IMG/VR virus record: IMGVR_UViG_3300020191_000050 | Location: 1 to 30,398 of that record | Reading direction: 5' to 3' (one strand) | Origin: a virus | Length of the DNA stretch: 30,398 bases | Notes under the pieces: model-generated | What the model was told of the DNA's origin: nothing | Databases searched by the model: none | What the model saw: the letters and a program-made list of their open reading frames with translations, nothing else | Translations under genes and position numbers: made by a program | Part shown: positions 2,277-30,398 of the stretch, piece by piece | Layout of the letters: every line of letters begins with the position of its first letter | Numbering within the stretch: position 1 is the stretch's first letter

Positions 2277-3092
2277 ATGGCTCCAAATAAGCCCAAAGAG
2301 ATTAGCTGGTCTGAGGCGTTGTTTAGTGTGATAGGGCACGAACCCCCTCCTGACTCATTAGAGCTTAGGAACTCGTTTATAGAGAATTGTTTAGCCGATC
2401 AAGACGGTAACAAAGTTAAACAAGCGGAGATACACATGACCATGCAGAAAGCCATCTTTGACTGGCAGAAGCAGGCAGACGCTAAAAAAGCCAGATTGAA
2501 TGGTCTGATACGAGCTCCTTACAACACAGGCAAGTCTCAGCAAGTACCTATTGGATTGTCAGCGTACCTTACTACGAGAAAGCACGAGCTAGAAACACTG
2601 ATTGTGTCAGCAGACGGTGGTATCTCTACTAAAAGGATATTGTCTTTAAGGTCTTTGTTTGATAGCGAGGTCTACAAGTACTGGTGCAGGGAGCACAACT
2701 TTAACCCGATAGAGTTAGACCGAACCGATACGGGCTCCACACAGCGGATCATTGCTAAGAGTCGTAACCGTACTGGTAACCCAACGTATGAGGCGTATGC
2801 GGTTCTAACGCAAACCACAGGTCAACGTGCTGGTGTTTTGATACTAGATGACGTTGCCAACGATGAGGATCGTATCTCTACAGCTCGTAGGGAAACCGTT
2901 TGGAACAAGGTATCCAACACATGGATTAAAAGGGTTCACGATAAAGGTATTGTTTTGAGTGTTTGTACCCCGTACCATCCAAATGACGCTAATAGTCGCT
3001 TAATGAAGTCTGGAATCTTTAATGTATTGCAGATTTCCGTAAAAGAAGATAAAACTGGATATAAGGTAGAAGAATGGAACAACCTAAAGTAG
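2277..3092 (+). CDS. Terminase large subunit, ATPase half (split gene)
   Basis: This encodes a 271-residue packaging ATPase domain that converts ATP hydrolysis into DNA translocation at the portal. The Walker A loop is APYNTGKSQ at residues 80-88, with Lys86 and Ser87 in the nucleotide-binding positions. Walker B is VLILDDV at about 187-193. The coupling motif is LSVCTPYHPND at about 227-237, the TP-H pattern usual in terminases. The protein stops soon after this, at the hinge where an intact large terminase continues into the nuclease domain. The nuclease half is encoded separately at 3415-4200, and a third gene lies between, overlapping this gene's end by 19 nt. The start is supported by AAGGAG upstream. 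Together the halves total 532 residues, a normal size for an unsplit protein, so nothing essential appears missing. Confidence 0.88.
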   Translation: MAPNKPKEISWSEALFSVIGHEPPPDSLELRNSFIENCLADQDGNKVKQAEIHMTMQKAIFDWQKQADAKKARLNGLIRAPYNTGKSQQVPIGLSAYLTTRKHELETLIVSADGGISTKRILSLRSLFDSEVYKYWCREHNFNPIELDRTDTGSTQRIIAKSRNRTGNPTYEAYAVLTQTTGQRAGVLILDDVANDEDRISTARRETVWNKVSNTWIKRVHDKGIVLSVCTPYHPNDANSRLMKSGIFNVLQISVKEDKTGYKVEEWNNLK

Positions 3093-3418
3093 TTATGTAC
3101 GCTCGCTTCTCTGCAGACGTTGAGCAAGAGCACATAGATGCCATAAAGCACGAAATGGATCTATTTTTAGATATGATAGACGCAAAACTTATGGCTCAGA
3201 AATGGGAGGTGCTAGACACATACGAAGAAAGCTCTGTTCTTGACTATGTGATAGACAAATGTATGAGGTATGGGTGGAGCATATTGACCTATGACATCAA
3301 GACGTTGCACCCATTTAAGGCTGGAGCCATATCCATTATTGAGGATGCTGCCGAAGATTCGGTTCCTATATTCTTTATAGATCCTGAAAGCGCCATGAAA
3401 TCAATATTCGGTATATGA
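3074..3418 (+). CDS. Serine-recombinase-like (resolvase-fold) protein inside the split terminase
   Basis: This encodes a 114-residue acidic protein. Residues 5-13 (KVVMYARFS) match the first strand of serine recombinases, which usually reads YxRVS and carries the nucleophile; Ser13 and Arg11 occupy those positions. KWEVLDTYEESS at about 43-54 fits the GWEIVEEYxDxGxSG strand, and WSILTYDIKTLHP followed by a helix and VPIFFID fits the strand-helix-strand holding the DRLSR motif. That second arginine cluster is replaced by KTLHP, and there is no DNA-binding domain, so recombinase activity is doubtful. The similarity is remote and judged by eye. The gene overlaps the ATPase half by 19 nt and the nuclease half by 4 nt (ATGA), so all three are translated as a coupled unit. 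A cofactor bridging the two halves and a degenerate mobile insert are both possible. Confidence 0.6.
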   Translation: MEQPKVVMYARFSADVEQEHIDAIKHEMDLFLDMIDAKLMAQKWEVLDTYEESSVLDYVIDKCMRYGWSILTYDIKTLHPFKAGAISIIEDAAEDSVPIFFIDPESAMKSIFGI

Positions 3419-4200
3419 GAGAGGCTGATAAGATATGGGAAATTCCCTTATGGGAAACAAACCACAGTAAACAACGTTTACTACAAGAGGAAGCGATGGA
3501 TTTCTTGTCTTATAAGCTCGGATACGAGATGAGCGAGGAAACCGATGACCCTGAACGTAAAGCATACAAACACTTTGATGGATATAATCACTACCCTGAC
3601 GGAAATCTCACAACAGACGATTATGATAGTAACCTTCCTGTTTGGCTATGTGCTGATTTTAACCGTAGCCCACATTGCTGGGCGCTCTTACAGGTCAAAA
3701 AAGCAAGAAATGGGCTTAAACAGTATATCATCTTTGATGAAATCTTCTCCAAAGAAGCACTCACAACCGAGCAAGCGCAAAAAGCAGTAGCTTTACTGCA
3801 AAAGTGGGGTATCTGGAAGGTTTTATTGTCTGGAGACAACACATCTAACCAGAAAAGTGGTAATTATGGTCGTGTAGGCAAGAATGACTGGGATTACGTG
3901 CGTGAAGTGTTTGATGAGAACGGTATTACTTATAAAAACGAGCTAGACGTACAAAACCCTAAGCGAAAGATACGTGTAGACAAGGTAAATAACGTTATAT
4001 ACGCTGGAACTAATGGTGAGCGCAGGCTTTTAGTCAATACGAGGTGTGAAAACGTCATAAAAGACTACATGTACTCCATAGTGAACGATAAAGGCTTAAA
4101 AATAGATAATGGAGACAGGGGTCACATGTCGGATGCCACAGATTACGCTATTTGGCGTAATGAGAAGGGGAACGCATCACCAATGTACGTGTTAAGGTAA
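3415..4200 (+). CDS. Terminase large subunit, nuclease half (split gene)
   Basis: This encodes a 261-residue RNase H-like nuclease domain that cuts concatemeric DNA at the start and end of packaging. It begins with the linker seen in intact terminases (IPLWETNHSKQRLL, about residues 10-23). The acidic metal ligands are visible: CADFN with Asp81, IIFDE with Glu109, LSGDN with Asp141, and HMSDATDYAIWR with Asp240 and Asp243 near the end. All acidic positions expected in the family appear present, so the half looks functional. It starts at an ATG overlapping the stop of the preceding gene (ATGA) and has no own Shine-Dalgarno site, so translation probably depends on reinitiation. Its end overlaps an opposite-strand gene by 9 nt. 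Confidence 0.85.
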   Translation: MREADKIWEIPLWETNHSKQRLLQEEAMDFLSYKLGYEMSEETDDPERKAYKHFDGYNHYPDGNLTTDDYDSNLPVWLCADFNRSPHCWALLQVKKARNGLKQYIIFDEIFSKEALTTEQAQKAVALLQKWGIWKVLLSGDNTSNQKSGNYGRVGKNDWDYVREVFDENGITYKNELDVQNPKRKIRVDKVNNVIYAGTNGERRLLVNTRCENVIKDYMYSIVNDKGLKIDNGDRGHMSDATDYAIWRNEKGNASPMYVLR

Positions 4201-4749
4201 AAAAATGTTAACGTCAGATCCGTACAAGACAACCTTTGTAGGCTGTAGCCTTTTTAGCTTAGGCTTTTTATACTTTTTTACTATGTTTCTAGCCTTAATA
4301 GGATGGTAAATAATAACCCTCTTGTCTGATAATAATAGGCAAGCGACAATATAGTCTGTTGGCAAAGGGTTAAAAACTAACGGATCATTCTTTTGGAAGC
4401 TCCAAGACAACTCAAAACTTTCCGCCTGATAGATGTGCTGAGACTTAATGTGCATTTTATACTCAACAGAATTGTGTACAGCAACAATATCAGCGTCATA
4501 AGACTTTTTAGATTTAGAGTAAACAGATATGTCTGGTTCCGTTACGTGTTCAAACTTGAGCTTATTCTTATAGTGATCGTATACAGCGTATTCAGCTATC
4601 TTTCCCCTGTATATATCTTTCTTTATTTTAGCAATATCAAGTTGACCACGACCCTTATACGTCTTTTTGTTGGTTCTATACACAGCCTCAACAAAGTCAA
4701 TACACTTCTTTTGGGTTTCTGGCTTTATTGTTACTTCTATCCATTTCAT
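4192..4749 (-). CDS. PD-(D/E)XK-like nuclease, opposite-strand insert
   Basis: This encodes a 185-residue basic protein and is the only minus-strand gene inside the head-tail operon. Visible motif elements are GKIAEYAVYDHY (residues 49-60, helix with Glu53), PDI (72-74), YDADI (84-88) and HIKSQ (100-104), followed by an aromatic SWSFQKNDPLVF segment. The order helix Glu, strand Asp, strand x-K-S-Q fits the PD-(D/E)XK nuclease fold, with His in the usual Glu/Gln position before the Lys. The gene meets the terminase nuclease gene tail to tail with a 9-nt overlap and is divergent from the next plus-strand gene. This looks like a later acquisition: a free-standing homing-type nuclease, or a nuclease acting on host or rival DNA. 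The fold is a moderate-confidence call and the role is inference. Confidence 0.6.
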   Translation of the reverse strand: MKWIEVTIKPETQKKCIDFVEAVYRTNKKTYKGRGQLDIAKIKKDIYRGKIAEYAVYDHYKNKLKFEHVTEPDISVYSKSKKSYDADIVAVHNSVEYKMHIKSQHIYQAESFELSWSFQKNDPLVFNPLPTDYIVACLLLSDKRVIIYHPIKARNIVKKYKKPKLKRLQPTKVVLYGSDVNIFLP

Positions 4750-27322: not shown

Positions 27323-27529
27323 TTAGTTAGTACCCATGGGTGGGAACTTGTCGTATCCCTTCAAGGAGGTGTAAGCGTCACCGTATCCTTTTATGTATCC
27401 CTTCTTGAAAATCTCTTCACTATTAACGGAGGAAATTTTTGCCTCAGGTCTAGGCATTTTATTCCCAGTTTGGTAACCGACCCAGAAGAAAGTAACCATG
27501 CTTGATAGGTAAACTAATATTTCGATCAT
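27323..27529 (-). CDS. Small membrane-anchored protein
   Basis: This encodes a 68-residue protein. Residues 2-20 (IEILVYLSSMVTFFWVGYQ) are one hydrophobic membrane segment or uncleaved signal anchor. The rest is polar with KKGYIKGYGDAYTSLKGYDK. The start ATG overlaps the stop of the DnaA-like gene (ATGA), so the two are translated together. It is the last gene of the minus-strand arm. A spanin or lysis accessory role is possible because of the membrane anchor, but the coupling to a DNA-binding protein could instead suggest membrane tethering of replication. No family was recognised. Confidence 0.55.
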   Translation of the reverse strand: MIEILVYLSSMVTFFWVGYQTGNKMPRPEAKISSVNSEEIFKKGYIKGYGDAYTSLKGYDKFPPMGTN

Positions 27530-27876
27530 AATTGTTGCACCCTCTCTAAAAACGCTTTCATATTTGACCTGTAACGAGCGTTCCCCTTATCGGCAATGGT
27601 TTTATATGCCTTAACTATCCGCATCGCTCTACTGTGATTTATGGGCATATTATGAGGTCTTGTAGATAACAGGTGGATAATGGTGCTATGATCCTTTCTG
27701 CCTAGCAATTCTGCTGTGTATTTAAAAGTATATCCCATATGTCTTAGTGCAATAGCACAAGTTTGTCGGGCATCTACAAGTTCCGATCTTCTGCTAGGGC
27801 TTTTTAGCTCTTTGGTTGTAATCCCAAAGTCACTACACACGCAGTCAATAATAAATTCGTGAGTTACGTTGTACAT
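27526..27876 (-). CDS. Free-standing DnaA domain IV-like DNA-binding protein
   Basis: This encodes a 116-residue protein. Residues about 10-70 carry the DnaA domain IV pattern: a helix (FIIDCVCSDFGITTKELKS), then RRSELVDARQTCAIALRHMG, then ELLGRKDHSTIIHLL. DHSTIIH corresponds to the DnaA signature DHTTVxHA, which contacts the DNA bases of the DnaA box, and the ARQ motif is also typical. The AAA+ ATPase domain of DnaA is absent, so this is a binding module only. It could recruit host DnaA or helicase to a phage origin, compete with host DnaA, or repress its own gene. Just upstream lie a 15-bp direct repeat, hairpins and a perfect DnaA box (28040-28048). A short possible leader ORF ends 2 nt before its ATG. 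Confidence 0.8.
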   Translation of the reverse strand: MYNVTHEFIIDCVCSDFGITTKELKSPSRRSELVDARQTCAIALRHMGYTFKYTAELLGRKDHSTIIHLLSTRPHNMPINHSRAMRIVKAYKTIADKGNARYRSNMKAFLERVQQL

Positions 27877-29863: not shown

Positions 29864-30398
29864 TTAAAACTTTGCTCTAGGCAAAGATAATCCTGCGTCT
29901 TGTAAGTGCTCTAGTCTCAAGCGGTTATGAGTTAACATGCCTCTACGAGACTTGACTACTTTTGCGAACACTGATTCGTAAGGGAACCTTTGATCCTCTT
30001 TCCATCCTCTTACGTTAATCCCTCCAAGCCCATCCTGCCCAATAAGGCTCTCTACCATGTTAGGTCTAAATACGGAGGTCATACAGTGAGCCACATTCTT
30101 GATTACCTGAGCCCATTGAGCGTCTTTATACTTAGGCTCAAGAGCCCACCCATGTCGGGTGTTGTCGTTAATCGTTACCTGACTACAGACTAAGATAAGC
30201 ACGTTAAGCTCCTTGGCAATCTGTTTCAATACCTTTGTTACGTAGTTCAGCTCTAAGGTTCTTGAGTCAAATTTTCCTTTGGCATATACCTCTTGTATGT
30301 AGTCTACCACTACAAAGTCAAGACCATTATCTTGCTTTACGATTCGGCACTGTCTTTTCATTTCGTCTACATCGTCTATAGAGTCTACGATCCTGATA
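29864..30398 (-). CDS. DnaB-type replicative helicase, C-terminal part (cut by window end)
   Basis: The frame is open to the right edge of the window, so the N-terminal part, including Walker A, is missing. About 177 residues are visible. FVVVDYIQEV is the Walker B strand (DnaB: VVIDYLQL). LNYVTKVLKQIAKELNVLIL followed by VCSQVTINDNTR matches the LKxLAKELNVPVIxLSQLxR motif. A later basic segment (VFAKVVKSRRGMLTHNRL) fits the KxRxG arginine region that contacts ATP across subunits. It would unwind phage DNA ahead of the fork as a hexamer. It is followed by the ssDNA-binding gene 71 nt downstream. The internal ATG at 30361 is not the true start, because the frame and the family match extend beyond it. 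Confidence 0.85.
   Translation of the reverse strand, partial: IRIVDSIDDVDEMKRQCRIVKQDNGLDFVVVDYIQEVYAKGKFDSRTLELNYVTKVLKQIAKELNVLILVCSQVTINDNTRHGWALEPKYKDAQWAQVIKNVAHCMTSVFRPNMVESLIGQDGLGGINVRGWKEDQRFPYESVFAKVVKSRRGMLTHNRLRLEHLQDAGLSLPRAKF

Follow-up and report, generated by a model that had tools for sequence, protein, structure and literature searches.

The large terminase of the phage examined here is encoded by two separate genes, one for the ATPase and one for the nuclease, with a third gene lying between them. The window, i.e. the whole stretch of DNA that was analysed, is the IMG/VR record IMGVR_UViG_3300020191_000050 (30,398 nt), and its terminase locus can be read with good confidence as that of a working, two-subunit and probably hybrid terminase, with a docking site for mobile genes at the joint between the halves. 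A working two-part terminase had been proposed in an earlier note on this DNA; the proposal is supported by the architecture of the locus and by its conservation, and we infer that the two halves assemble into one enzyme.

Layout of the split locus

The three open reading frames (2277-3092, 3074-3418 and 3415-4200, all on the + strand) lie in three different frames and overlap by 19 and 4 nt, as the earlier note had described and as was found again when coordinates, frames and overlaps were rechecked. The first of them encodes the ATPase half (271 aa), which matches the TerL family phrog_38 (2e-21) and aligns by hhalign with Zobellviridae TerL (95.8%, 8e-9). The motifs formerly assigned to this frame are all present, namely Walker A (APYNTGKS, residues 80-87, A80-S87, numbered from the hhalign comparison with Zobellviridae TerL; 2514-2537), Walker B (VLILDD, residues 187-192; 2835-2852) and the coupling motif (SVCTP, residues 228-232; 2958-2972), and they are invariant in the window's clade, the coupling motif from V229 to P232. 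The last frame encodes the nuclease half (261 aa), which matches phrog_10250 (3e-8) and shows an RNase H-like nuclease domain in its hhalign profile match to TerL of the phrog_2 type (98.6%, 6e-16). The nuclease acidic residues had been placed entirely in this second half, and there they are: D81 (3655-3657) aligns with an invariant Asp of fused TerL nucleases, and D108/E109 (3736-3741), D141 (3835-3837) and D240 (4132-4134) align with invariant acidic columns of the same enzymes. The break between the halves had been located at the inter-domain hinge. It is near the hinge, but falls just before the lid/linker that precedes the nuclease domain, so that a lid/linker segment of ~45 residues travels with the nuclease half as its first part.

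Between the halves lies MID (3074-3418, + strand, 114 aa), assigned from Pfam Resolvase and PDB profile matches, a structure model and an alignment to the fold of serine-recombinase (resolvase) catalytic domains, with an active site that is not conserved. The 5' end of its gene shares 19 nt with the 3' end of the ATPase gene (3074-3092), which is the place at which a GIY-YIG-type gene is inserted in other loci, and its stop overlaps the start of the nuclease gene in an ATGA (3415-3418), where translational coupling is probable. Upstream of the ATPase half, a 193-aa helix-turn-helix (HTH) protein (1621-2202, + strand; HTH_Tnp_1, 1.7e-5) is the probable terminase small subunit, with a weak match to such subunits (0.003) and a similar HTH gene in the equivalent place in a sister clade. 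The ATPase motifs, the nuclease acidic residues and the gene order small subunit-ATPase-nuclease-portal are those of loci with fused TerL (phrog_38 or Zobellviridae-T7 type; phrog_2 or phrog_10250 type). The difference is that no single polypeptide holds both domains: two genes are found in all loci of two clades, and each half matches a different TerL lineage.

Several other genes of the window were also noted. A convergent 185-aa ORF on the - strand (4192-4749) overlaps the end of the nuclease half and contains a stretch that looks PD-(D/E)XK-like by eye (YDADIVAVHNSVEYKMHIKSQ), with no Pfam match. A protein of the DUF7178 family (7e-33), which also gives a weak match of 8-oxoguanine DNA glycosylase-like type, is encoded at 164-805, and a stand-alone DnaA domain IV (DNA-binding) protein (Bac_DnaA_C, 5e-15) at 27526-27876 on the - strand, in a replication module where it adjoins a DnaB-like helicase (29864-30397).

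Age of the split and lineages of the halves

The window's clade was collected with the nuclease half and MID as queries and comprises ~100 IMG/VR contigs from many samples; the joint is spanned in 90 of its loci, 67 without and 23 with an extra gene. The earlier note had advised looking for the same three-gene order in other phage genomes, and the order ATPase-MID-nuclease is present in all 90, much more often than chance would allow. The overlap between ATPase and MID is 19 nt in every one of the 67 loci without the extra gene, while that between MID and nuclease is 4 nt (ATGA) in 86 of the 90 and 14-17 nt in the remaining four. The ATPase gene ends at the same codon in those 67 loci, with different stops (TAG 49, TAA 16, TGA 2), and dN/dS across the clade is ~0.03 for the ATPase, ~0.06 for the nuclease and ~0.28 for MID. 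Conserved order, conserved overlaps, the variety of stop codons and low dN/dS together exclude assembly error and decay, as the earlier note had maintained. As far as sequence comparison can tell, both terminase halves are under strong conservation and the split is old and stable. An error had been considered by others for the split terminase of Parabacteroides phage phiPDS1, in which two terminase domains likewise lie in two CDS and for which the authors left codon usage or assembly error open (PMC10773633). For the present locus, the idea of an assembly or sequencing error, or of a decayed terminase, is already refuted by the comparative data, since conservation across two clades is joined to ~100 contigs of varied origin, different stop codons and strong purifying selection. 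No match was obtained in a DNA-level search of phage records, in scans of genome contigs with the ATPase half, or in PDB sequence searches with either terminase half.

The terminase thus divided is the only one found. The window record and nine longer relatives have one phrog_38 match each, and exactly one nuclease half is present in each of the nine, which agrees with the earlier statement that there is no other terminase. One of these relatives (36,260 bp) is near-complete, its ends overlapping over 384 bp at 97.4% identity as expected of a circularly redundant contig; the window is ~30 kb out of a genome of perhaps 36 kb.

The sister clade, brought in by a DNA pattern for a conserved nuclease peptide, has halves ~57% identical to those of the window and is split at the same point (L282, L294, L297), with other genes in the gap. 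The gap of L297 is taken up by a single 76-aa ORF sharing an ATGA with the nuclease start; that of L294 and L295 has two small ORFs, one of them similar to the ORF of L297, and a phrog_8198 gene of 259 aa; and that of L282 has several small ORFs. No MID homologue was recognised in the sister-clade loci; in L288, whose nuclease half is 69% identical to that of the window, the upstream end has a MID-like C-terminus. The shared split point, combined with different gap genes in the sister clade, shows that the split arose before MID. Of the three-gene arrangement suggested before, the two halves are constant, but the middle gene is no fixed third part. The frame offset between ATPase and nuclease takes all three values across lineages, which excludes a fixed frameshift joining the halves, and programmed frameshifting was rejected as a candidate because the frame relations differ between lineages. 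Two further features of the sister clade were observed: an extra gene of ~150-170 aa without a confident Pfam match lies between small subunit and ATPase half (L282:1222-1728, L294:991-1509, L306:987-1442), and the phrog_8198 protein between the halves (L295:405-1184, L294:2445-3224), of unknown function, might be a virion protein.

Interrupted terL genes that are rejoined by splicing are known from Jug phages (PMC12363816) and ICP1 (PMC10448857), with T5orf172 or other homing genes nearby, and inteins also occur in terL (PMC7156551). By analogy, a self-splicing intron (or an intein) with MID as its ORF might join the present halves after transcription. Such precedents speak for it, but it is highly improbable here: the gap is coding sequence, filled by MID with overlaps on both sides, and its length (212 to >1000 nt) and content vary completely between clades. 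An Rfam search across the joint of the window and of L054 gave no match up to E 5, with no ribozyme core between the coding parts, and an intron search of four sister loci gave no match; the intron spanning the gap that would have spoken against the earlier note was thus not detected in any of these loci.

The earlier note had also taken the halves to add up to one normal terminase, and here the comparison gave a different answer, because each half matches a different TerL lineage and the two do not form one known terminase type. The fused terminases retrieved by the ATPase half are Zobellviridae types and those retrieved by the nuclease half are of another type; among the matches listed, no record was matched by both halves. 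By hhalign, the ATPase half gives 95.8-97.2% against Zobellviridae TerL and 0.1-0.2% against the phrog_2 type, whereas the nuclease half gives 98.6-99.0% against the phrog_2 type and 1.5-6% against Zobellviridae. HMMs run on 13 fused TerLs showed the same dissociation, which is partly conditioned on the choice of the panels, as these were picked using each half. Compared by profile, the two fused types find no match in one another, and DSL-LC06, alone among phage records in having a related portal, encodes a terminase of the phrog_2 type. A common origin of the halves could be masked if the nuclease domain has diverged fast, and the structure model of the nuclease half (pLDDT 46.5) is too poor for a fold search. 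The dissociation is, at the level of sequence, strong if not final evidence for a hybrid: with halves that come from, or have diverged towards, two TerL lineages, the enzyme is probably hybrid. Incongruent trees of ATPase and nuclease have been reported for other terminases (PMC12846349). No fused ancestor of the window's clade was found, nor a fused relative close enough to reveal the direction of change (fission or pairing of modules).

The joint as an exchange site

In 23 of the 90 loci an extra gene of the MUG113/T5orf172 GIY-YIG group lies between ATPase and MID, with domain matches down to 3e-14 (PF13455) and 1.5e-10 (PF10544) and, in most of the 23, a zinc-ribbon-like N-terminus. Homing endonucleases of the T5orf172 type are already known, and their most frequent location is close to terminase genes (PMC10448857); the present ones differ in being inside the terminase joint and in travelling with MID. 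In L070 the 19-nt overlap sequence is present on both sides of the extra gene, as an insertion footprint, and L057 has a MID nearly identical to that of L070 (97.7%), yet without the insertion. The presence of the extra gene requires three changes on the MID tree as against nine on the nuclease tree, and two on a tree of the last 322 nt of the ATPase gene as against 9-10 on the nuclease gene. Moreover, in the pair L064 and L074 the flanks are 94.9% and 97.7% identical and the MID genes 65.5%. MID is thus replaced, alone or along with the extra gene, while the flanking sequence hardly changes. The tree tests and pair profiles point to a single mobile block, made up of the ATPase 3' end, the extra gene and MID and bounded by the nuclease start, although clear cases of cassette replacement are few and MID is also fast-evolving. 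In a sliding-window replacement test, 61 of 264 pairs initially scored at MID and none elsewhere, and this excess was lost with stricter flanks, because MID also evolves fast; the exchange claim rests only on the pair profiles and tree tests. The pattern of co-exchange would fit homing of the extra gene, a putative homing endonuclease. In L141, at around 3000-3100, the 3' end of the ATPase gene is seemingly tandemly repeated beside the extra gene, which could be the trace of a recombination event or else an artefact of assembly.

The presence of homing-type genes in 23 of the 90 joints recalls the phage genes-in-pieces Aeh1 nrdA/mobE, T4 gene 60/mobA and phage 25 43A/43B (PMC2988022), in which a single enzyme is produced in two chains and a mobile gene sits at the break or close to it. 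It is tentatively conceivable that here too a mobile element (MID or a homing gene) broke into what was once one terminase gene, and that both pieces kept working. This reading is a doubtful one on three counts: the split of the sister clade, at the identical point, involves neither MID nor a homing gene, the homing-type gene of L070 landed in a pre-existing ATPase/MID overlap, and the halves match different TerL lineages. As 67 of the 90 loci and the sister clade are split without an endonuclease gene, insertion of the endonuclease did not create the split; further differences from the known cases are that the split predates the homing-type genes, that a recombinase-fold ORF occupies the joint, and that the enzyme is a terminase.

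MID alone matched no family in the family search of the window's ORFs, and nothing in phage and plasmid records. Among 26 homologues, Pfam Resolvase was matched by 16 (best 1.4e-5), and a profile of the family found the serine recombinase 3g13 in the PDB by hmmsearch (0.002). The best fold matches of the MID model (pLDDT 76.5) are serine-recombinase catalytic domains, with a VIA-align Z of 10.5 to 6dgc (IS607 TnpA) and 9.6 to TP901-1 integrase. Other candidates were set aside: bromodomain matches in the PDB sequence search are due to chance and vanish with the family profile, and fold matches to HflX, periplasmic-binding proteins and Argonaute reflect common Rossmann-like arrangements and rank below the serine recombinases. 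MID has the fold of the serine recombinases without their conserved catalytic serine and arginines, the serine position being S/G/T/N in the alignment and the 65-85 region holding no conserved Arg. A variable serine position and missing later arginines make recombinase activity unlikely.

Purifying selection on MID (dN/dS 0.28) indicates that the protein itself matters, and together with its intact presence in 90 of 90 loci and its overlaps with both neighbours might suggest that MID is indispensable as a third subunit, linking the ATPase to the nuclease. Such a role is unlikely, given that diverged versions of MID have been swapped in while both partners stayed nearly identical, and that no homologue was recognised in the sister clade.

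Proposed packaging enzyme and its significance

In the two-subunit, hybrid reading that we prefer, one operon with two genes would supply the large terminase as two polypeptides, the ATPase (translocation) subunit and a nuclease subunit with the linker attached, and these would be expected to assemble on the portal and to act like the usual one-chain TerL. The hybrid was probably made by pairing the ATPase module of one lineage with the linker-nuclease module of another. With no reading frame running across it, the joint tolerates extra genes: MID, probably a catalytically altered protein of serine-recombinase fold, has become fixed in the window's clade, GIY-YIG (T5orf172/MUG113) homing-type genes appear to have entered between ATPase and MID on two or more occasions, and the sister clade has other small ORFs and the phrog_8198 gene in this place. 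MID, the invading gene and the ATPase 3' end are exchanged as a block up to the nuclease start, as expected of homing with co-conversion, and translation of the nuclease would probably be coupled to that of MID via the ATGA overlap; if MID also had a part in packaging, that would come in addition. A stronger version, in which the enzyme is a true heteromeric hybrid of two TerL lineages long kept apart, and the joint a docking and exchange site that swaps a recombinase-fold protein beside the packaging motor, seems to us evenly balanced between right and wrong. A conserved two-gene terminase with halves of different lineages and an exchange site at the joint was not found described in the literature searched, outside which most subscription papers lie.

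In nearly all large terminases the ATPase and the nuclease share one chain, and a central question is how the two are coupled during packaging. A two-subunit version that occurs in nature and is conserved over two clades offers a system in which each part could be purified, mixed and mutated separately, and in which the interchangeability of ATPases and nucleases from different lineages could be asked. The phages that carry it form an uncultured group, and in them the break point of an essential packaging gene has become a stable point of entry for mobile genes, at which a protein of recombinase fold is fixed. The finding suggests that an enzyme usually made as one protein is able to evolve, and to exchange parts, in the form of two subunits.
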